64,000 bases of DNA from Proteobacteria bacterium UBA7415 (GTDB lineage: Bacteria; Pseudomonadota; Gammaproteobacteria; Arenicellales; Arenicellaceae), in contig DKML01000020.1 of assembly GCA_002470515.1 (NCBI GenBank), positions 213,754-277,753 of the forward strand, in the 5' to 3' direction. A program made the translations under genes and the position numbers. Every line of letters begins with the position of its first letter. Positions within the stretch are counted from its first letter, which is position 1. This document shows positions 46,287 to 64,000 of this stretch, piece after piece. The notes beneath the pieces are model-generated. The model had not been told where the DNA came from, ran no database searches, and saw only the letters and a program-made list of their open reading frames with translations.

Positions 46287-49200
46287 TTAAGCACCCGCTT
46301 GCAGTGATATTATCTTGCTGTAAGCATCAAGCATCTTCTCTAGTTGAAGGTGGTATTCAGTCACACTGGCTTCCTTCACGTGTCCGTAGCCTCTGATTTT
46401 TTCGGGTAAGGATGCTATCTGTACCGCTAGCGGATAGTTGTCATTGTTCAAGGATGAACAAACTGTCTTAATCGTCTCTTCATAATCAACAATCAATTGT
46501 CGTTCCATCTTACGCTCCGACGATTTGCCAAAAACATCAAATGCCGTACCCCTTAAAAGTTTCAATTTTGAAAGCACTCTAAAAAGCGGTAACACCCAAG
46601 GCCCGAAAGTCATTTTCTTAGGCAGTCCACTTACCTTATCCTTAGGCGCGATAGACGGCGGCGAGAGGTTAAATTGCAATTTAAAGTCACCTTCAAATTC
46701 GGCGTTTAGCTTACGTTTAAATTCAGGGTCGCTATAGAGACGGCCAACTTCATACTCGTCTTTATAAGCCATTAGCTTATAGCCGTAACGAGCTACGGCC
46801 ATGCTGAGTTCGTTCTTTTTATCTAAGCTAGATTCGGCCGTTTTTGTGGCATCCACCATGCTTAGATATCGCTGAGCATATTTCGAATCTTGGTATAAAG
46901 TCAGTTCGGTTGTTCGGTGCTCAATTAGTTGCTCCAAGGTTTTAGGAAACTCGATTTGTGAGCCTGAATTGCGATTAGCTATCTCGATTACGGCATCTAA
47001 GTCATGAGCAACACATCGTCCCCACTCAAATGCGGTTTGATTCCACTTTGGTGAGACTCCGTTTAATTCGATTGCCTGATATATCGAAGTTTTTGACAGC
47101 GGCACCAAGCCTTTCTGCCAAGTAAAGCCGAGCAACAGCAGATTCGCACCGATAGAATTTCCGAGTAATTTCACAGCAAGGTCAGAAGCGTTCAAATAGG
47201 TAGTCTTTTCCGAGTCTAAGACACTAATCAGGCGGTCTTTAACATTGTCAGAAGGGTATTGAAGGTCTGGGTCTCGAGTGAAATCGCCTGTGATCGCCTT
47301 GTTGGTATTTATCACTGCGGTTGTTCTTCGTTTCGAGAAAGTATCGAGTACCGCATCACTGGCGATGGTTAACATGTCATAGCCCAGCACTAAATCGGCA
47401 CTGGCAGCATTTATTCGCGCGGAATTTATATCATCCGGTTTATTTGCAATGCGTGTGTGAGTTAATACCGCACCGCCTTTTTGTGCGAAGCCCATTTGGT
47501 CCACAATCGACACGCCTTTTTTATCTATGTGCGCTGCCATTCCTATGAGTGCACCAACGGTAATGACTCCAGTACCACCAACACCGCCAGATAAAACACC
47601 ATAGGTGCCCCCCGAAGGTATATTGGCAATAACGGGCTCAGGCAGATTGAAAAGGTCTGGTGACGCGCCTTCTACTGCAGTGCCTTTACGCATATCACCC
47701 CCAAGCACTGTCACAAAGCTTGGGCAGAAACCGTTGTTACATGAGTAATCTTTGTTACAGGCCGATTGATCTATCTTGCGCTTACGGCCAAATTCGGTTT
47801 CTGTAGGTAACACGGCAACGCAATTGGATTTTTTACTGCAATCCCCACAGCCTTCACACACTCTGTCGTTGATGAACATTCGTTTTGCTGGGTCGGGAAA
47901 TGTCCCACGTTTACGCCTTCGACGCTTTTCTGCAGCGCAAGTTTGGTCGTATATCAGAATCGACACGCCTTCGATCTCACGCATTTCTCGTTGTACTAGC
48001 TCTAGATCTTCTCGATGGTGGATAGTGGTACCGGCAGCGAAGTTGGAGTCAGTGCTATATTTCTCTGGCTCGTCGGTAACAACCGCGATACGTTCAATGC
48101 CTTCACCGCGCATTTGATTGGTGATTTGCGGAACGCTGATAGGGCCATCAACAGGTTGGCCACCCGTCATGGCAACAGCATCATTGAAAAGGATCTTATA
48201 GGTGATGTTCACCCCAGATGCGACGGCTGAGCGGATAGCGAGAGTGCCGGAGTGATAGTAAGTGCCATCCCCTAACTGTTGAAATACATGCTTTGTTTTT
48301 ACAAATGGTGCCTGGCCTATCCAAGGAACACCTTCGCCGCCCATTTGGGTGGCGTATCCGACATCACGGTCCATCCAATAGGCCATGAAATGGCAGCCTA
48401 CGCCGCCATAGGCTCTACTGCCTTCGGGCACCTTAGTCGATGAGTTATGTGGACAGCCTGAACAAAAGTAGGGCAGGCGAGTCAATGCTAACGCTTCTCT
48501 ATCTTGACTACGAGCTAATTGAGTATCGAGTACATTCAGTCGACCACTTAGGTCAACATCTACGTATAACTTTTGGATACGAGCGGCAATGATCCGGGCA
48601 ATTCTGTCTGTATGCAAATTACCGTAGTTTTCGGTCATCAAAAGACCCGCTTCGTCGCGTCTACCAACAATACTGGGGCGTTGAGCTTCAGGTAAGTGAT
48701 AGCAAACATCACGAAGTGCATTCTCTATTTGTTCACGTTTATCCTCTATTACCAATATATCACTCAAGCCAGCAGCAAACTCTTTGTAGGTCTCACGATC
48801 AACAGGAAAGGGCATAGCCACCTTAAGAATACGAACACCCATTGAGCTTAGGTTCGCCTCACTTAAACCTAGGTCTTTTATAGCTTGCAAAGCATCGCGC
48901 CAAGTTTTACCCATCGCAGCGATTCCAAATTTTGGCATCTCGCTGTCGTGTGTCACTCTGTTCAACTTATTCGCTCGTGCAAATGCAACAGCTGCTGGAA
49001 GTTTGTAACGAAGCAGTCGCTCTTCTTGAAATGCCCAACTGTCGCCCACGCGAGAGTTAACTCCGTCAGAGGGAAATTTGAACTCGGGTGTCACAATTTG
49101 AATTTGGTCATGAGCTGCATTGATCGACGCTGCCGTTTCTATGGTTTCAGGCAGTAATTTATAACCAACCCACGCACCAGAGAAACGAGAAAGGGCAATA

Positions 49201-49757
49201 CCATACAGCGCCATATCAAATACATCTTGAATGTCCGCGGGGTATAACACTGGCATCAATAAATCTTCAAACAGAAGCTCAGAATGGTAGGCGTCTACCG
49301 TCGAGGTCTGTGCTGGATCATCACCAGCTAAGACCAATACGCCACCATGTTTTGAAGACCCCCAATAGTTAGCTTGACGCATCGCATCTAAACTTTGGTC
49401 TAGACCGGGCCCCTTGCCATACCACATTGAGTAGACGCCGTCGTAATTGGCGTCGTTATGAAAATGAGTTTGCTGCGACCCCCAGATAGCCGTAGCAGCC
49501 ATATGTTCATTAACGGCAGGCCAAAACTTAACATGGTGCTCTTTGGCTAGTTCTTCAGCGCGCCACATCTCTTGGTCCATAACCGTCATTGGCGAGCCAC
49601 GGTATCCAGAAATAAAGCCAGCCGTGTTCAAGCCTGCGGCCATGTCTCGTCTTCGTTGAACCATGAGCACTCGCACAAGTGCTTGCGAGCCAGTTAAATA
49701 TATTCGCCCCGAATCAAAGGTGTATTTGTCCTGCAGGGTAACTACTTGTTGATTCAT
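46287..49757 (-). CDS. Fused indolepyruvate/2-oxoacid:ferredoxin oxidoreductase
   Basis: 1156 aa, the length of the aerobic single-chain IOR family. It oxidatively decarboxylates a 2-oxoacid to an acyl-CoA using TPP and Fe-S clusters; characterised relatives act on aryl pyruvates. Residues 1-330 resemble the IorA pyrimidine-binding part. The TPP-binding region follows (CSGCPHNSSTKVPEG, GGVGCHFMAYWMDRDVGYATQMGGEGV, ILFNDAVAMTGGQPVDG). A Cys-rich cluster region sits near residue 630-680 (VCEGCGDCSKKSNC, CNKDYSCNNGFCPSF), then a gamma-subunit-like part (GGVGGTGVITVGALIGMAAH), and the C-terminal DUF6537-like domain. It overlaps the hydroxy-acid oxidase gene by 4 bp, which suggests that they act in sequence. 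Confidence 0.92.
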   Translation of the reverse strand: MNQQVVTLQDKYTFDSGRIYLTGSQALVRVLMVQRRRDMAAGLNTAGFISGYRGSPMTVMDQEMWRAEELAKEHHVKFWPAVNEHMAATAIWGSQQTHFHNDANYDGVYSMWYGKGPGLDQSLDAMRQANYWGSSKHGGVLVLAGDDPAQTSTVDAYHSELLFEDLLMPVLYPADIQDVFDMALYGIALSRFSGAWVGYKLLPETIETAASINAAHDQIQIVTPEFKFPSDGVNSRVGDSWAFQEERLLRYKLPAAVAFARANKLNRVTHDSEMPKFGIAAMGKTWRDALQAIKDLGLSEANLSSMGVRILKVAMPFPVDRETYKEFAAGLSDILVIEDKREQIENALRDVCYHLPEAQRPSIVGRRDEAGLLMTENYGNLHTDRIARIIAARIQKLYVDVDLSGRLNVLDTQLARSQDREALALTRLPYFCSGCPHNSSTKVPEGSRAYGGVGCHFMAYWMDRDVGYATQMGGEGVPWIGQAPFVKTKHVFQQLGDGTYYHSGTLAIRSAVASGVNITYKILFNDAVAMTGGQPVDGPISVPQITNQMRGEGIERIAVVTDEPEKYSTDSNFAAGTTIHHREDLELVQREMREIEGVSILIYDQTCAAEKRRRRKRGTFPDPAKRMFINDRVCEGCGDCSKKSNCVAVLPTETEFGRKRKIDQSACNKDYSCNNGFCPSFVTVLGGDMRKGTAVEGASPDLFNLPEPVIANIPSGGTYGVLSGGVGGTGVITVGALIGMAAHIDKKGVSIVDQMGFAQKGGAVLTHTRIANKPDDINSARINAASADLVLGYDMLTIASDAVLDTFSKRRTTAVINTNKAITGDFTRDPDLQYPSDNVKDRLISVLDSEKTTYLNASDLAVKLLGNSIGANLLLLGFTWQKGLVPLSKTSIYQAIELNGVSPKWNQTAFEWGRCVAHDLDAVIEIANRNSGSQIEFPKTLEQLIEHRTTELTLYQDSKYAQRYLSMVDATKTAESSLDKKNELSMAVARYGYKLMAYKDEYEVGRLYSDPEFKRKLNAEFEGDFKLQFNLSPPSIAPKDKVSGLPKKMTFGPWVLPLFRVLSKLKLLRGTAFDVFGKSSERKMERQLIVDYEETIKTVCSSLNNDNYPLAVQIASLPEKIRGYGHVKEASVTEYHLQLEKMLDAYSKIISLQAGA

Positions 49758-50908
49758 AGATGGTTCCTTGCGATGTGGCGTTCGCTTATTTGATTAATTG
49801 ATGTGACGCCTAACAGGCCCATGTCACGCTCAAGCTCTTCTTTTAATATGCCAAGCACCTTGCTTACACCTGCCTCGCCACCGGCCGCTAAACCGTAGAT
49901 ATAGGGTCTTGCAAAGGAGCAAGCGTCGGCTCCCATGGCCAGTGCTTTAATTATGTGTGTGCCTCTGCGAATTCCGCTGTCGGCAATGATTTCAATTTTG
50001 TCTCCCACAGCGTCGCGAATATTAGCGATTTGATGAATCGTCGGCATGACTCCATCTAATTGTCGGCCGCCATGGGTCGAGACAATAATGGCGCTGGCCC
50101 CTACATCGATGGCCTTTTTAGCGTCTTCAACCGAGAGAATGCCTTTTAGCGCTAGCGGGCCGTCCCAGTTGTTTCGGAACTCAGCGATATCGTTCCAGGT
50201 CACCGAAACGTCGAATAACGAGTGCGCCAACTCAAAAGTGTTCATGCCACCACCAAACGCATCAACTTTATGCGCAATATTGGACATTTCGAAATCTTGA
50301 TTTGAGGCAAGAAAGGGCAAAGACCAAGCAGGCTTAGCAGCAAACTGGAAAAAAGTAGATGGCTTGATCTTAGGAGGAAAGCTTAAGCCGCTGCGCAAAT
50401 CTCGCTCTCTATTACCACCAATCGAACTATCTACCGTAATGCAGATGCTATTAAAGTTCGCCGCCTTAGCGCGCGATAAAAACTCCAACGAGATGCCGCG
50501 ATCTTTGAAAACATACACTTGGAACATCTTAGGGCCCTTAGTCACGGCACCAATCTCTTCAATGCTCGCTGTACCGAAGGTGGCGAGGGAATAGATAATG
50601 CCTAACTCATCTGCCGCTGTTGCCACACCAAACTCTTTGTCTTGATGATATAGGCGACTCGCACCGCTGGGCCCACAGAAAAAGGGAAGGTCCATTTCCA
50701 CGCCCAAAACCTTTGTTTTGGTGTTAATTGAACTGACATCAACGAGCGTTTCGGGAATCAGAGAATAATGATCAAACGCGCTTACATTTTGGCGAAGGGT
50801 GATCTCATCTTCCGCACCGCCATCCATATATTCGAATATAGCGTGAGGCAGTTTTCGCTTCGCAATTTTTCGAAAATCAGCTACGTTGTAACAATTTTTA
50901 ATTGACAT
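49754..50908 (-). CDS. FMN-dependent 2-hydroxy-acid oxidase/dehydrogenase
   Basis: 384 aa. A (beta/alpha)8-barrel of the lactate dehydrogenase LldD/mandelate dehydrogenase/glycolate oxidase family, which oxidises L-2-hydroxy acids to 2-oxoacids. N-terminal DFRKIAKRKLPHAIFEYMDGGAEDEITLRQN; FMN-phosphate site ALKGILSVEDAKKAIDVGASAIIVSTHGGRQLDG, with the catalytic His in STHGGRQLD; ADSGIRRGTHIIKALAMGADACSFARPYIYGLAAGGEAGV. The substrate-binding Arg lies in the same block. The end overlaps the oxidoreductase gene that would consume its 2-oxoacid product. Confidence 0.93.
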   Translation of the reverse strand: MSIKNCYNVADFRKIAKRKLPHAIFEYMDGGAEDEITLRQNVSAFDHYSLIPETLVDVSSINTKTKVLGVEMDLPFFCGPSGASRLYHQDKEFGVATAADELGIIYSLATFGTASIEEIGAVTKGPKMFQVYVFKDRGISLEFLSRAKAANFNSICITVDSSIGGNRERDLRSGLSFPPKIKPSTFFQFAAKPAWSLPFLASNQDFEMSNIAHKVDAFGGGMNTFELAHSLFDVSVTWNDIAEFRNNWDGPLALKGILSVEDAKKAIDVGASAIIVSTHGGRQLDGVMPTIHQIANIRDAVGDKIEIIADSGIRRGTHIIKALAMGADACSFARPYIYGLAAGGEAGVSKVLGILKEELERDMGLLGVTSINQISERHIARNHL

Positions 50909-55153: not shown

Positions 55154-55312
55154 AGCTCTTCGTCTCAATTTTTAGCTGGTGTTTTATAAATTCTAACACC
55201 GTTAATTTGTCAAATTGGGCACACCGTGCGTCTAAAAGCAAAGTGCGGAGGGTTCTTGCTTCGAATCTATTCAGCTTCAGTTACCATTAGCGATCATACT
55301 TGGAGAATGATT

Positions 55313-56404
55313 ATGTATAACGCCATCGACGATTTTTCAGATAGCTATAGTGAATCGCGTAAGAAGTTTCTATCAGCCATGGCTGGCAAGGGTGACGTGG
55401 TCTCGATACCTCATTCATTAAAGGGTCCAGATGGTGAAGATCTTTCCATGGATTTCGGTGTATTAGGCAAGCCAGACGCAAAACTTGGACTAGTGTTAGT
55501 TTCTGGCACGCACGGCCCAGAAGGCCTATGTGGTTCGGGAGCGCAAACAGGGTTCCTTAACTCTGGGATGCTAGACGACCTATCTGACATTAGAGTCATC
55601 ATCTTACACGCGCATAACCCCTACGGATTTGCATGGTGGCGCCGGACTAATGAAGACAATATTGATCTAAATAGAAATTACTATGACTTCTCTGTGCCGT
55701 TCACTCCCCACCCAGGCTATGACATATTGCGGCCTACCATGGTTCCTGATGAATGGGACCCGGAGGAGGTTGCTGCAGGTTTAGGAGTTTATGAGAAAGA
55801 ACATGGCAAGGTAGGTTTATTAGCCGCGATGGTCAGCGGCCAGAGCCATGACCCTGGTGGATTGTTTTATCGTGGTTCAGGACCATCTTGGTCTAGGCTA
55901 ACCGTTGAGGCAACGCTACCTGGATTATTAGCCGAACAAACTCATGTCGCGCTCATTGATTACCATACTGGCTTGGGGCCTTTTGGAGTGCCTTACATAG
56001 TGCATGGCTATGAAAAGGACACCATTGAGTTTCAGGCTTTTGAAACAGCTTTTGAAGGCGAAGCTCGTTCAACCATGGACACCGAAAACTTAGACGAAGA
56101 TTTACCGGCTTCTCCCGAAGGGCCTCTTGTTCTGTCTATGCAAGCTGTGCTGCCAAACAAACAAAACTACGCCGCGGTCATCGAGTATGGAACAGTACCA
56201 CCAGAACAAGTATTTACAACATTAATGGAAGATAACTGGGTTCATGCTCACGGTAAACTCGACACAGAGCAGGGTCGAGCAGCAAAGGACAGAATGAAAG
56301 AGTGTTTTTATCCTAGCTCAGATAAATGGAAAGGGATGATTTGGGAACGCTCGGTTTGGTCGATTAACTGCGCAGTTAAATTGCTCAGAGATGAAACTGC
56401 CTGA
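55313..56404 (+). CDS. DUF2817 family protein (M14-like carboxypeptidase fold)
   Basis: 363 aa from ATG 55313, chosen because GGAG lies 7 bp upstream; earlier in-frame starts up to 55226 are open but have no such site. It has the DUF2817 core: VLVSGTHGPEGLCGSGAQTGF, with the His and Glu that would bind Zn, HAHNPYGFAWWRRTNEDNIDLNRNYYDF, and IDYHTGLGPFGVPYIVHGY. This matches an M14 zinc carboxypeptidase-like fold. Biochemical function is not established for the family. It is divergent from the MFS gene. A role in cleaving an amide or peptide-like precursor of the island's substrate is possible but unproven. Confidence 0.85.
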   Translation: MYNAIDDFSDSYSESRKKFLSAMAGKGDVVSIPHSLKGPDGEDLSMDFGVLGKPDAKLGLVLVSGTHGPEGLCGSGAQTGFLNSGMLDDLSDIRVIILHAHNPYGFAWWRRTNEDNIDLNRNYYDFSVPFTPHPGYDILRPTMVPDEWDPEEVAAGLGVYEKEHGKVGLLAAMVSGQSHDPGGLFYRGSGPSWSRLTVEATLPGLLAEQTHVALIDYHTGLGPFGVPYIVHGYEKDTIEFQAFETAFEGEARSTMDTENLDEDLPASPEGPLVLSMQAVLPNKQNYAAVIEYGTVPPEQVFTTLMEDNWVHAHGKLDTEQGRAAKDRMKECFYPSSDKWKGMIWERSVWSINCAVKLLRDETA

Positions 56405-60197: not shown

Positions 60198-61280
60198 TCA
60201 GGCAATCTTAATAACGTTGTTTTTACTATTTCCATCACTAGATTTTCCAGCACCAATATTTTGAGCACGATACTCAGTAGGGCTTAACCCAGTCCATTTT
60301 TTAAAGGCGCGTGACAGATTACTGAAGTCAGAAAACCCTAACAAAAAGGCAACATCGCCTACGGATAAATTGTCTTGACGAAGATACTGCTCTGCTAACT
60401 CTCGTCGAGTTTGATCTAAAATTTCTTGGAAGCTGGTGTCTACTTCGGCCAATTTGTTATGCAAGGTACGCACGCTGAAACACAGTTCACGAGCTACAGT
60501 CGCTTTGCAAAATTCGCCAGTAGGTAAAAGTTCCATTAGCTTTAGCCTAACGCGCATGGCTGTGTTTGCCTTTGCAATACGTTCCATGACTTCAAGAATG
60601 ACTTCATCATTTTGCCTCGCTAACGAGGCATTGGCAGTTGGCAACTGAACATCTAAGTCTTCAGCGTTAAACACCAAGCTATACTCTTCTGCGCCAAAGA
60701 TAATAGGGCAGTCAAAGTACTCTTGAAGCTTTTCTATCATCATTGGGTCTGATTCCGTACCAGGAATTTTCACCGCAGCGGGTTTGAAATGTTCGCCATA
60801 CATCAGTGAAATCATCTTCTTGAACCAAATCAGCGTTCCATACAACAAGACAGATATTTGATGAGCCTTATCTTGATTAGGGGTAATAACAAGCGCGGGC
60901 TCGAACTCTTTATCGTCAAACACCCAATCTTCAGTCGTAGTTAGAAAAGCACCGTAGCGTTCCAAACGGATCAAAAATTTGCGGATGCTCCGACTTGAGA
61001 ACAGGGCAAGTCCCATTGCATGAAATAAAGTAGGCTGAATATGATCGGCGGTTCTGAAAATAAAATACGGATCATTGGTTTCTTTCTCAGCCTCAACCAA
61101 TAATTTGTAGTAATGACTTGTGTGTATTCTGGAATAAGCGCTATTTAGATTAGTATGATCAATTTCCAGTCGTTCAAAAACGGCATTCGCATCAACCCCA
61201 TAAGAGTTCAGTGTTTGGTAAATAATGACGGCCATCCCTCCAAAGAGGGACGGGGTTGACTGCACAGGAGACTCAGACAT
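60198..61280 (-). CDS. AraC-family transcriptional regulator
   Basis: 360 aa from ATG 61280; a GTG three codons earlier is an alternative. The N-terminal about 200 residues form a ligand-binding domain of the PF12625 (AraC-type arabinose-binding-like) kind. The C-terminal 80 residues are the HTH pair: EQYLRQDNLSVGDVAFLLGFSDFSNLSRAFKKWTGLSPTEYRAQN. It lies between the acyl-CoA dehydrogenase and the MaoC gene and may control the neighbouring catabolic genes; this is by position only. Confidence 0.9.
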   Translation of the reverse strand: MSESPVQSTPSLFGGMAVIIYQTLNSYGVDANAVFERLEIDHTNLNSAYSRIHTSHYYKLLVEAEKETNDPYFIFRTADHIQPTLFHAMGLALFSSRSIRKFLIRLERYGAFLTTTEDWVFDDKEFEPALVITPNQDKAHQISVLLYGTLIWFKKMISLMYGEHFKPAAVKIPGTESDPMMIEKLQEYFDCPIIFGAEEYSLVFNAEDLDVQLPTANASLARQNDEVILEVMERIAKANTAMRVRLKLMELLPTGEFCKATVARELCFSVRTLHNKLAEVDTSFQEILDQTRRELAEQYLRQDNLSVGDVAFLLGFSDFSNLSRAFKKWTGLSPTEYRAQNIGAGKSSDGNSKNNVIKIA

Positions 61281-61450
61281 ATTGCACACGAAAGATCATA
61301 TAAATTCTATTCATCACTAGATACTAGAACATAATAATTCTAACCGCCAGCTCAATATCCTTTTAGGTTTTTGAAAGAACGATGCTTGATGCATTTTATC
61401 TTGCTCCGTCTTTACTCTTTAGCTGAATGAATTTCAAAGAAGCTCACTTC

Positions 61451-61903
61451 TTACCAATACCGTAATAGAAAAGTTGCTTCAGCAAGATGCTGATCTGATT
61501 CAATCTCATCGAAACTAACTTGATAGACAACTTCAACACCTTTCTTTCTAGGTTCTACAGCGCTGATGGTAGATGTTATCGCAAGTGTTGTACCCACGTA
61601 AATTGGTCTATAGATGCGAATCTTATCGATTCCTTTCACAATAATACGCGGCACGTTTTGCAGCTCAACATGATCCCAAAAAACTTGCGGGTATAAAGAA
61701 GGCAAAAACAAACCCGGAGTGATAATTCCTTCTAAGCCTGACTCTTTACTTGCCTGCTCATCCCAATGGACCCATTCCTGATTGTTTACGGACAAGCAAT
61801 ATTGTTGAATTTTTTCCAGCGTTATCTCGATTGGATACGAGGTGAATAATGGTAGGCCAATATACGCTTGAAAATCGTCTAAGCCTTTAATAACTGTCTT
61901 CAT
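61451..61903 (-). CDS. MaoC-like dehydratase domain protein (second copy)
   Basis: 150 aa. A hot-dog fold with a short N-terminal helix; QYCLSVNNQEWVHWDEQASKESGLEGIITPGLFLPSLYPQVFW is the recognisable MaoC part (the Asp-His catalytic pattern reads VHWDE, with His two residues before Asp). It differs from the copy at 56738 and probably handles a different acyl-CoA. Divergent from the oxygenase operon at 62116. Confidence 0.75.
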   Translation of the reverse strand: MKTVIKGLDDFQAYIGLPLFTSYPIEITLEKIQQYCLSVNNQEWVHWDEQASKESGLEGIITPGLFLPSLYPQVFWDHVELQNVPRIIVKGIDKIRIYRPIYVGTTLAITSTISAVEPRKKGVEVVYQVSFDEIESDQHLAEATFLLRYW

Positions 61904-62115: not shown

Positions 62116-63066
62116 ATGGAAAGTGTACACTTTACTGAAAGCCTAGATGAGAATGCAGAAGCTCAGATGATTGCGCGTATTGAATCGGGTGAGCTTATTG
62201 AACACATCGAGGATATGACCCCTGGCTATCGAGAAGCGCTAAAGCAAGTAATTCACATTGCGGCTATCTCAGAAATAACCGTTCTCACCTGGGCTCATAC
62301 GGCTTATGACTCCGCCCCAGATATAGGGGCTAAAATCGCAGTTTGCGCGACTATTCAAGACGAAGTAGGCCACGCACACCAACAGGGTTTGTTGGCAGAA
62401 CGTTTTGGCGTTGACATTCATCACGGCACCTTTGAAGACAGTATAGATAAAATCTTCACTTGGCCGATCATGGAATTCCCAATTCGTAACTATGTTGAGT
62501 TTGTGGTAATGCAGTGTTTACTTGATAGAGCTGGTTTACATTGGACTAAAGACATAGAGCTGCATTCAAGCTTCGCGCCTTATCGTCGTACGCTGCGCAA
62601 GGTTAATTTTGAGGAAGGCTTCCACATGCGCCACGGAGCGCACTGGACCGAGTTCTATTGGAATAACTCCGACGAAACAAAACAAGCGGTTCAGACAGCG
62701 TTTGATTGGTTATTTCCGCATGGCGTAATGTGGTTTGGTAAACCAGATGATCTAAAGTCAAGACCGGCTATGTTGCAATATCAAATTCGGAAATGGAGCA
62801 ATGACTTCATGCGAGATAAATGGCTTCAATCTGCCTGCGCGTTTGCCGCTAAGCACGATATCACAGTGCCCGCTCACTACGATGAGGAACAAAAGAAGTA
62901 CGTATTGGATATGCCGTATCCAATGCTCTATAACCGTGATTACACTTGGACTCAGGAGCAGACCACGCAAAAAGAGTACTGGAGTAACGCGCGCAAGGGT
63001 GGCCCAATGCGGCCTGCGGCCTATGAACGATTACGCCATGAAGAATGGGGTGATCAACTGTGGTAG
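62116..63066 (+). CDS. Divergent PaaA-like oxygenase large subunit
   Basis: 316 aa from ATG 62116, which has AAAAGG eight or so bases upstream; in-frame starts at 62056 and 62086 precede it. Ferritin-like diiron oxygenase of the phenylacetyl-CoA epoxidase PaaA family. Metal-site residues are seen as Glu53 (ISEITVLTW), Glu83/His86 (IQDEVGHAH), Asp137 (DRAG) and Glu167/His170 (NFEEGFHMRHG). The sequence is only distantly like the E. coli PaaA N-terminus. It is followed at once (overlap 7 bp) by the PaaD-like gene. The substrate is a CoA thioester by family, not known here. Confidence 0.88.
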   Translation: MESVHFTESLDENAEAQMIARIESGELIEHIEDMTPGYREALKQVIHIAAISEITVLTWAHTAYDSAPDIGAKIAVCATIQDEVGHAHQQGLLAERFGVDIHHGTFEDSIDKIFTWPIMEFPIRNYVEFVVMQCLLDRAGLHWTKDIELHSSFAPYRRTLRKVNFEEGFHMRHGAHWTEFYWNNSDETKQAVQTAFDWLFPHGVMWFGKPDDLKSRPAMLQYQIRKWSNDFMRDKWLQSACAFAAKHDITVPAHYDEEQKKYVLDMPYPMLYNRDYTWTQEQTTQKEYWSNARKGGPMRPAAYERLRHEEWGDQLW

Positions 63067-63404
63067 CACCAGGCCAGCAACAGAAAAGTATTGTGACCGA
63101 AGCACAGGTTTCATCGGCTTTGGATGCAGTCATCGATCCTCATATGAAAGTTGGAATGAACGATATGGGCATGATTACAGACATAGAGATCGACGATCAA
63201 TCCAACATCGCTATTGGCATGGTCTTTCCGTGCATTGGATGTCCTGCATGGACTTTGATTCAGGACAATATTAAAGCCGAAGTCGGTGCTATTTCCGGCG
63301 CTAAATCAGTATCTGTAAGTGTCGACTGGTCTCATACATGGGAGAGAGAAGACATGAGCGAAAAAGCTAAACAACATGCGCAAACTCATGGTTACCGCAT
63401 TTAA
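63060..63404 (+). CDS. MIP18/DUF59 protein, N-terminal half of PaaD
   Basis: 114 aa, GTG start at 63060 inside the PaaA-like gene. The MIP18-like domain shows VIDPHMKVGMNDMGMITDI and VFPCIGCPAWTLIQDNI, as in PaaD (GCPA), and the ending RWSHTWEREDMSEKAKQHAQTHGYRI-like tail matches the end of that domain (DWxxxxARxxLxxxGI). PaaD is needed for assembly or maturation of the PaaABC complex. The Zn-ribbon that normally follows in the same chain is missing and is encoded separately at 63656. Confidence 0.88.
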   Translation: MVAPGQQQKSIVTEAQVSSALDAVIDPHMKVGMNDMGMITDIEIDDQSNIAIGMVFPCIGCPAWTLIQDNIKAEVGAISGAKSVSVSVDWSHTWEREDMSEKAKQHAQTHGYRI

Positions 63405-63416
63405 GGAGCCAATACG

Positions 63417-63656
63417 ATGATCACAAAAAATTACCCAACTCGAAAGGGCACTAATTACGAAGTGTTTGCCCGGGATAACCCTGAACGGCCGTTGCAACAT
63501 ATTGGCACCGTGCAAGCAGAGAATGAACAGCTTGCGATCGCGCACGCGCGTTTTGTTTACTCAGAGCGACCTTGGGCTGAATTGATCATTGCACCAAGTG
63601 ACGGTTTTCTGGATTGTCTTAGGACTGGCAAGCGCGGCGTTATTGGCATTGCATAG
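63417..63656 (+). CDS. PaaB-like oxygenase subunit
   Basis: 79 aa, small subunit: NYEVFARDNPERPLQHIGTVQAENEQLAIAHARFVYSERPWAELIIAPSDGFL, the standard PaaB pattern (YEVF.R......H.GS..A.....A...AR..Y.RR......W.V.....). It starts 12 bp after the PaaD-like gene with GGAG upstream and overlaps the next gene by one base. In PaaABC, PaaB tethers pairs of PaaAC heterodimers. Confidence 0.87.
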   Translation: MITKNYPTRKGTNYEVFARDNPERPLQHIGTVQAENEQLAIAHARFVYSERPWAELIIAPSDGFLDCLRTGKRGVIGIA

Positions 63657-63883
63657 TGATTGCCAAGCCTAAAAGAAAACCCAATGCCGGCTCAAGTGAT
63701 TTCGCCAAGCGTTACGATGGGACAGTGGCGTGCGCCTGGTGTGAATCTGTTAATACAAAATTATCAAACCCTTTTGGCGGCACTGTTTCAGAAATGCTGT
63801 TCACTTGCAGCGACTGCGGTGAAACCTTTGGTTGGATGAAGTGGCAAATGCTGCGCGATAGTAATGAAAAAATAAAGGCTTAA
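63656..63883 (+). CDS. Zn-ribbon protein, C-terminal half of PaaD
   Basis: 75 aa, GTG start at 63656. Two CxxC pairs: CAWC near residue 26 and CSDC near residue 51, in the frame VACAWCESVNTKLSNPFGGTVSEMLFTCSDCGETFGWMKW. This matches the C-terminal zinc ribbon of PaaD (CPRC...ISEFGSTACKALYRCxxCxxPFDYFK). It therefore supplies the domain missing from the MIP18 gene at 63060, with a paaB-like gene between the halves. The 1-base overlap with paaB-like implies coupling. Confidence 0.85.
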   Translation: MIAKPKRKPNAGSSDFAKRYDGTVACAWCESVNTKLSNPFGGTVSEMLFTCSDCGETFGWMKWQMLRDSNEKIKA

Positions 63884-63884
63884 A

Positions 63885-64000
63885 ATGAACGAGAAAACGC
63901 TTAATAACGAAAATCTATTGGCTGAAATGCTCTGCATCAGTGATACCAAATGGGTGTTAGGTCATTGGTACGCAAAGATCATCCTGAACGGCCGTACTGT
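63885..64000 (+). CDS. PaaC-like oxygenase subunit (partial)
   Basis: Starts at ATG 63885, one base after the preceding stop, and runs off the window. The 38 visible residues (LLAEMLCISDTKWVLGHWYAK) match the start of PaaC-type ferritin-like subunits (L..L.D..L.L..R...W). This completes the order A - D1 - B - D2 - C. The reductase PaaE would be expected beyond the edge. Confidence 0.7.
   Translation, partial: MNEKTLNNENLLAEMLCISDTKWVLGHWYAKIILNGRT

Follow-up and report, generated by a model that had tools for sequence, protein, structure and literature searches.

The 64,000-nucleotide (nt) stretch of contig DKML01000020.1 from Proteobacteria bacterium UBA7415 (the window, meaning this whole stretch) ends in a row of five genes similar to those of phenylacetyl-coenzyme A (CoA) epoxidase, in which PaaD is encoded by two genes, D1 and D2, on either side of a paaB-like gene. 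The question raised by this locus is whether the row A-D1-B-D2-C encodes an ordinary phenylacetyl-CoA epoxidase in a rearranged operon or an oxygenase of another kind. Gene content, gene order, clade, residue changes and the lack of a PaaE over the cut-off were read directly from the sequence. With a probability of roughly 0.7, the operon represents a distinct PaaE-independent family of diiron CoA-ester oxygenases, which would be partly ferredoxin-fed and would use a two-piece carrier for maturation. Two findings stand out most as new: the loss of the lysine bridge in PaaA together with the missing PaaE, and the rebuilt DUF59 pocket of D1.

Gene order, recurrence and trees

All five genes of the A-D1-B-D2-C order described in the earlier note were found at positions 62116-64000, with Pfam matches over the curated cut-offs (Table 1). 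The genes are tightly packed; the start of D1 overlaps the end of A by 7 nt, and D2 begins with a GTG start codon in a 1-nt overlap with the stop codon of B. The C gene extends past the window end to L003:10490 (L003 is the contig continuation, L003 position being window position minus 54246) and has a full length of 283 amino acids (aa). On the PaaD model TIGR02159 (146 positions), D1 aligned to 3-87 and D2 to 89-144; the two are complementary and, judged from these alignments, jointly correspond to one PaaD with a full PaaB-like gene lying between its halves. Paired PaaA-type and PaaC-type chains over the Pfam cut-off together with a PaaB were present, as in the PaaA/PaaC superfamily (PF05138), and the NCBIfam matches of A at E 0.001 were confined to models of PaaA and PaaC, with no BoxB model searched by itself. 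The equivalog cut-offs were not reached by A (96.6 bits with PaaA model TIGR02156, cut-off 280), C (48.8 bits with the PaaC model, cut-off 133.35), D1 and D2 (42.3 and 32.2 bits with TIGR02159, cut-off 108.15) or B (27.9 bits with the PaaB model, cut-off 85.45), although B is above the Pfam cut-off of PF06243.

When the named-genome collection was searched with a profile built from the window PaaA and its relatives, at least 41 loci were obtained among the 80 pattern matches listed, and together with four plasmid-record loci (L056, L057, L058 and L060) and the window locus a total of 46 split loci was obtained. The complete order A-D1-B-D2-C was present in 28 of them, the window included, and the complete order A-D1-B-C-D2 in 14; the remaining four (L010, L015, L035 and L042) were ended by contig ends and agree with one or other split order. 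Some split loci are near-copies, e.g. L025-L027. Hosts of the A-D1-B-D2-C order were gammaproteobacterial metagenome-assembled genomes (MAGs), isolate HTCC2080 (L026; its genome has a canonical PaaA as well), one Hellea and one Rhizobiaceae MAG, and hosts of the A-D1-B-C-D2 order were haloarchaea, Thermus, Sulfobacillus, Mycobacterium, Amycolatopsis, an Acidothermales MAG, Burkholderiales, Agrobacterium and alphaproteobacteria. The split system is rare and patchy in distribution: neither 17 genomes of the same genus (E 1e-10) nor 368 others sampled from the class (E 1e-60) gave a match.

With 28 loci sharing the same complete order, chance and assembly error can both be dismissed as its cause. 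This also answers the question of the earlier note on recurrence in other genomes and bears out its argument that a simple frameshift cannot produce two halves with a full paaB-like gene between them. Errors of this kind do occur in MAGs, as seen in database protein P0059, which joins PaaA and D1 through a middle part unlike PaaA and looks like an assembly frameshift, not a real fusion. An origin of the split by frameshift or misassembly of an ordinary PaaD was nevertheless rejected as next to impossible, given the intervening gene and the order common to the 28 complete loci.

The PaaA tree (56 rows) separated 13 canonical rows from 43 split rows with support of 100/100. The 29 A-D1-B-D2-C rows formed one clade (100/99) nested inside the A-D1-B-C-D2 order, the tree being unrooted. 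In the PaaC tree, the split and canonical rows were separated with 100/99 after leaving out two long branches (L058 and L067) and with 78/3 when these were kept. The divergent PaaA and distinct branch proposed in the earlier note were thus recovered, most clearly with PaaA. Rows L034, L035, L039, L051, L053, L054 and L055 were left out of the trees (short or of another family), the PaaC trees were also built without L048 and L049, and the second PaaC tree further without L058 and L067.

Residues of PaaA, PaaC and the two PaaD pieces

The iron ligands of PaaA are E42, E72, H75, D126, E155 and H158, and a lysine bridge is formed by Lys68 with Glu49, Glu72 and Asp126, for which a role in electron transfer from PaaE was suggested (excerpts of PMC4498308). 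All six ligands were intact in 12/12 canonical and 43/43 split rows, the window PaaA included. Lys68 was present in 12/12 canonical rows and in 0/43 split rows, with Thr or Ser at this position in 29/29 A-D1-B-D2-C rows (Thr in the window). Similarly, Glu49 (or Asp) was found in 12/12 canonical rows and in 0/43 split rows, the window having Ala. Among 93 database homologues of the window PaaA, the lysine was found in none of the 85 with a readable motif; the other eight were unreadable. Phe108, which orients the phenyl group of the substrate (PMC4498308), was present in 11/12 canonical rows and was Met in the window and in 29/29 A-D1-B-D2-C rows, with Leu, Val or Phe in A-D1-B-C-D2 rows. In addition, Gly127, beside ligand Asp126, was changed to Arg in 41/43 split rows. 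Canonical counts refer to 12 rows, with L067 (Lys at 68, Phe at 49, Asn at 126) excluded. From these alignments, the loss of the lysine bridge with all six iron ligands kept appears to be a new feature.

Degenerate ligands were found in the window PaaC and also in the canonical PaaC of bacteria. A catalytic PaaC in the window was rejected, with Lys and Gly at two of the six ligand columns, and a structural role was kept. The PaaC of the canonical-side haloarchaea Haloferax (L059) and Natrinema (L065) showed, unlike bacterial PaaC, the full aligned diiron ligand set EEHDEH and may bind iron.

The DUF59 pocket is described as DPE-X26-31-T-X2/3-C with a hyperactive cysteine (excerpts of PMC9045647), and SufT as having a single strictly conserved cysteine (excerpts of PMC4982691). 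The window D1 does not carry this motif and has DPH (His28) and PCIGCP (Cys58 and Cys61) in its place. The pattern D[PA]H with PCx[GA]CP was found in 45/46 split loci, so that Glu is changed to His, Thr to Pro, and a second cysteine makes a CxxC. Canonical-side loci kept DPE in 13/13 (the thirteenth, L066, as DPEV) and T[YS]x[GA]CP in 10/13, of the rest two being truncated and one having PTRLSCP. The D2 of the window keeps the four ribbon cysteines and has lost the fifth cysteine of canonical PaaD (as in ACKALYRC), which was present in 9/9 readable canonical loci and in 0/43 readable split ribbons, where this column is mostly Ser or Ala (Ser in L037). The best 120 of 526 database matches of D1 had D[PA]H in 119 and PCxxCP in 120, with lengths of 103-130 aa and none fused, whereas the best 120 of 7999 matches of E. 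coli PaaD (mostly enterobacterial) had DPH/PCxxCP in none, DPE in 116 and the ribbon cysteine in 115. The AlphaFold model of the window D1 (predicted local distance difference test score, pLDDT, 91.8) showed a DUF59 fold, with 3lno_A as the closest Foldseek match (E 6.8e-10) and 1uwd also matched.

Taken from the alignments, the rebuilt DUF59 pocket and the loss of the fifth ribbon cysteine appear to be a further new feature. A residue swap that accompanies the split was rejected, as Haloferax and Natrinema have a split PaaD yet keep DPE, TYTGCP and the ribbon cysteine; by these motifs, the pocket change tracks the PaaA clade and not the PaaD split, Thermus L058 excepted.

Electron supply, known systems and competing explanations

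The source genome is 98.46% complete and holds a single PaaA/PaaC pair. A full-length PaaD elsewhere in this genome, which the earlier note had named as a check, was not found with TIGR02159; the three matches were D1, D2 and a partial one on contig 29, which covered model positions 1-98 with stop codons read through and scored 47.6 bits (cut-off 108.15). Likewise, the genome held no match over the cut-off for PaaE (best 57.7 bits against 420.8), PaaK (20.7 against 646.3) or the ring-opening PaaZ (124 against 562.8). No control genome passed 420.8 bits, but 5/23 sampled genomes did, which shows that the PaaE model works. Downstream, where the earlier note expected PaaE, the contig continues instead into genes for a small ferredoxin, a molybdoenzyme and an NMO-family protein.

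The genomes of 23 of the 41 scan loci were sampled for canonical PaaA and PaaE. Canonical PaaA over the cut-off was also present in 12/23, and one haloarchaeal PaaA was just under it (264.4 against 280). PaaE-model matches of at least 377 bits were found in 11/23 genomes (five over 420.8), each within about 4 kb of a canonical PaaA. Sulfobacillus had a canonical PaaA without a PaaE-model match of 377 bits or more, and Amycolatopsis had a second, weaker PaaE match (232.7 bits) elsewhere in its genome. Where canonical PaaA over the cut-off was missing (11 genomes), PaaE scores reached 128.5 bits at most, against 420.8. Because high PaaE scores occur only near canonical PaaA, the split-type oxygenase very likely works without PaaE. 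Of the complete A-D1-B-D2-C loci, 12/28 had a ferredoxin gene near the operon, and three haloarchaeal split loci had small [2Fe-2S] proteins nearby.

PaaD is needed in vivo and not in vitro, and was suggested to put iron into "PaaE or PaaA" (PMC4498308). Both D pieces were present in 42/42 complete loci of the two orders; since D1 and D2 are kept in all of them and PaaE is apparently dispensable, this pattern of gene presence and absence argues for PaaA as the client of PaaD.

For the reaction, electron route, iron loading and substrate, the following scheme is proposed. An acyl- or aryl-CoA ester would bind PaaA, and O2 would be activated at a diiron site whose six ligands match those of E. 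coli PaaA, with PaaB bridging PaaA to a probably structural PaaC. Because PaaE and the lysine bridge are both absent, electrons would not come from PaaE via this bridge; the likely donor is a [2Fe-2S] ferredoxin where one is encoded beside the operon, as at the window locus. D1 and D2 would jointly take the place of PaaD, most likely by supplying PaaA with iron, and since the D1 pocket is changed from Asp-Glu-Thr-Cys to Asp-His-Cys-Cys, iron or a cluster may be bound by D1 itself. Phenylacetyl-CoA is probably not the substrate: the other substrate raised as a possibility in the earlier note was judged likely because the lysine bridge is lost, Phe108 is replaced and canonical PaaA coexists in 12/23 genomes.

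Like E. coli PaaABCDE (paa operon, L046), the window operon has a diiron PaaA/PaaC pair with identical six ligands, a PaaB and both PaaD domains; it differs in a PaaD split by paaB, in the lack of PaaE, paaK or paaZ over the cut-off in the genome, in the replaced lysine bridge and Phe108, and in the DUF59 pocket and ribbon. The haloarchaeal PaaABC of Haloferax and Natrinema likewise has PaaD as two genes (DUF59 and ribbon) and no PaaE reductase in the stretches shown, but its order is A-B-C-D1-D2, its PaaA and PaaC are on the canonical side of the trees, its D1 keeps DPE and TYTGCP and its D2 keeps the fifth cysteine, unlike the window. The earlier statement that PaaD is one chain therefore did not hold, as the Haloferax and Natrinema plasmids carry the ribbon as an annotated gene of its own, and novelty of the split PaaD itself was rejected, since Haloferax-type phenylacetate operons have it and NCBIfam models exist for both halves (NF041868 and NF041869). 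The ribbon half is named "PaaE" by NCBI; this haloarchaeal protein (L059:7478-7645, NF041869) is not the reductase PaaE but a zinc ribbon of 55 aa that represents the second half of PaaD on its own.

D1 also shares the DUF59 fold (3lno, 1uwd) and single-domain build of SufT and other stand-alone DUF59 proteins, but has DPH, Pro and CxxC where the described DUF59 pocket has DPE, T and C (PMC9045647); SufT has one strictly conserved cysteine (PMC4982691). The benzoyl-CoA epoxidase BoxB is a diiron CoA-ester epoxidase related to PaaA that also works without PaaE, but it is described as monomeric and fed by BoxA (PMC4498308), and the window A has NCBIfam matches to PaaA and PaaC only. In a 2026 survey, "partial multicomponent" was the score given to its 32 haloarchaeal cases and to Sulfobacillus thermotolerans (excerpts of PMC13186573). 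No paper describing a PaaA-type branch with split PaaD was found in the open-access literature.

Several observations weigh against a distinct PaaE-independent family. The separation in PaaC is supported by only 78/3 with the long branches kept, and the PaaC tree lacks a single A-D1-B-D2-C clade, the Rhizobiaceae row L020 joining Sulfobacillus and Mycobacterium; PaaC thus did not give a second proof of the monophyly of this order. The split set was collected by similarity to the window and the canonical set consists of 13 loci only. Thermus L058 is the sole exception in the pocket (DPE, TSLGCP) though its PaaA is split-type. A ferredoxin donor is not general, because no ferredoxin match was seen in 16 of the 28 complete A-D1-B-D2-C loci, of which 12 extend for at least 3 kb to both sides and four for less than 3 kb to one side. 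Finally, 11/23 sampled genomes, many of them MAGs and maybe incomplete, have no canonical PaaA over the cut-off to do the phenylacetate job. This last count also favours an ordinary phenylacetyl-CoA epoxidase in a rearranged operon, with residue changes that are drift without functional weight, as do the PaaA, PaaB, PaaC and PaaD domains over Pfam cut-offs, the intact iron ligands, and the Haloferax-type epoxidases, whose PaaD is likewise split and which lack a neighbouring PaaE in the stretch shown. Such an epoxidase is improbable on balance, given scores far under the equivalog cut-offs (A 96.6 of 280, D2 32.2 of 108.15), the lysine bridge and Phe108 replaced in all A-D1-B-D2-C rows, the 12/23 genomes that already have a canonical PaaA, and no PaaK, PaaE or PaaZ over the cut-off in the window genome.

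The role of the two PaaD pieces could also be another one, with D1 and D2 maturing the neighbouring ferredoxin or another iron-sulfur protein and not PaaA, the DUF59 half being a SufT-like cluster factor. DUF59 proteins are known in iron-sulfur protein maturation (PMC9045647, PMC4982691), the wording "PaaE or PaaA" left the client open in PMC4498308, and the CxxC could bind a cluster; however, all 16 complete A-D1-B-D2-C loci with no ferredoxin match nearby retain D1 and D2, and the two always lie inside the A-B-C gene string, which makes this role unlikely. An alpha-oxidation would have the oxygenase 2-hydroxylate an acyl-CoA, the LldD-type dehydrogenase make the 2-oxo acid, and the indolepyruvate-type oxidoreductase free a shortened acyl-CoA and reduce the ferredoxin that feeds the oxygenase. 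In a survey of neighbours at 30 A-D1-B-D2-C loci (up to 10 kb per side, less in some and more for the window), these genes may be linked to the oxygenase by their recurrence (LldD-type in 11/30, CoA-transferase in 10/30, indolepyruvate-type oxidoreductase in 5/30, ferredoxin in 12), and the lack of a PaaZ over the cut-off in the window genome agrees with such a route. It was still considered quite improbable: of the 30 loci, that of the window alone combines the oxidoreductase, LldD and ferredoxin genes, several flanks being short, the ferredoxin-reducing role of the oxidoreductase is assumed, and the thiolase and ChsH2-like genes fit side-chain beta-oxidation or retro-aldol cleavage equally. 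Within the preferred reading of a distinct PaaE-independent family, a more specific form is possible but less likely than not, in which the separate family without a lysine bridge is fed by free ferredoxin and the two-piece carrier has its DUF59 pocket rebuilt into a Cys-Cys-His metal or cluster site. If so, D1 would carry iron itself and the D2 ribbon would dock D1 to PaaA; single-cysteine SufT was reported not to carry iron itself.

Neighbouring genes, related loci and significance

The annotated neighbours of the operon are listed in Table 1. Other recurrent neighbours in the 30 loci were a molybdoenzyme (16), a thiolase-like gene (14) and a CoA-transferase (10). Past the thiolase-like gene, further minus-strand genes encode a YjgF-like protein and a TonB-dependent receptor. 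The gene row L003:14422-16973 resembles steroid side-chain hydratase and aldolase sets. The best solved relative of its thiolase-like protein was thiolase 4u4e, with lipid-transfer protein 6ok1 and a benzoylsuccinyl-CoA thiolase subunit ranked lower, and the FAS1-like protein had weak matches to ChsH1 and ChsH2. The molybdoenzyme, with relatives near 16/30 loci, had no obvious export signal at its start as judged by eye. A DUF2817 protein (287 bits) is encoded at window positions 55226-56404; its family was found in 9/30 loci, as was an MFS-like transporter family, and these genes possibly serve substrate uptake or hydrolysis. The neighbour set says CoA-ester catabolism and names no substrate; perhaps a branched side chain is the target.

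Table 1. Coordinates of the operon genes and annotated neighbours (window positions unless marked L003; loci counts refer to the 30 surveyed loci).
Feature	Coordinates	Strand	Details
PaaA-like catalytic subunit (A)	62116..63066	+	316 aa; PF05138 124.3 bits, cut-off 28.5
D1, DUF59/MIP18 half of PaaD	63060..63404	+	114 aa; PF01883 (FeS_assembly_P) 60.3 bits, cut-off 23.5
PaaB-like bridging subunit (B)	63417..63656	+	79 aa; PF06243 33.5 bits, cut-off 27
D2, zinc-ribbon half of PaaD	63656..63883	+	75 aa; PF23451 (Zn_ribbon_PaaD) 51.1 bits, cut-off 27
PaaC-like subunit (C), first part	63885..64000	+	PF05138 69.8 bits, cut-off 28.5
MaoC-type hydratase, divergent neighbour	61451..61903	-	PF01575 39.3 bits, cut-off 27; 24/30 loci
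AraC-family regulator	60198..61289	-	PF12625 86.4 bits, PF12833 72.3 bits; relatives in 18/30 loci
LldD-type FMN-dependent dehydrogenase	49754..50908	-	NF008398 329.8 bits, cut-off 376; 11/30 loci
Fused indolepyruvate ferredoxin oxidoreductase family protein	46287..49757	-	NF009589 1561 bits, cut-off 816; 5/30 loci
[2Fe-2S] ferredoxin	L003:10530-10865		Pfam Fer2; downstream of C
Molybdoenzyme	L003:10938-13271		777 aa; TIGR00509 (S/N-oxide reductase subfamily) 884.1 bits, cut-off 1017.55
NMO-family flavoenzyme	L003:13261-14391		downstream of molybdoenzyme
MaoC-like (weak match), FAS1-like dehydratase, ChsH2-type OB/zinc-ribbon and thiolase-like genes in a row	L003:14422-16973	-	

Some related loci showed other arrangements. 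The Thermus plasmid pTF27b (L058:5025-7428) carries a split-clade operon with two PaaB-like genes, a DUF59 half without the rebuilt pattern and an unannotated ribbon match after C. In L051, L053, L054 and L055, which come from genomes of the same taxonomic order, a short PaaA-like gene (235-262 aa) adjoins the gene of a PaaE-matching protein of 166-173 aa. On the plasmid of Streptomyces sp. Mut1 (L067), a set of genes resembling PaaA, PaaC and PaaD lies next to ketoacyl synthase genes; ligand position 126 is Asn, and a PaaB was not detected.

For PaaD, a clade with both halves but no PaaE points to PaaA as the client, and D1 and D2 are two small, separable proteins. That PaaE and the lysine bridge are missing together is relevant to the proposed transfer of PaaE electrons through the bridge (PMC4498308), with the caveat that Haloferax-type PaaA keeps the bridge without an adjacent PaaE. 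Split-type operons bear phenylacetate names in databases, e.g. P0013, "phenylacetyl-CoA epoxidase subunit PaaA". Separating the split branch would stop wrong phenylacetate predictions and would mark a further CoA-ester pathway.

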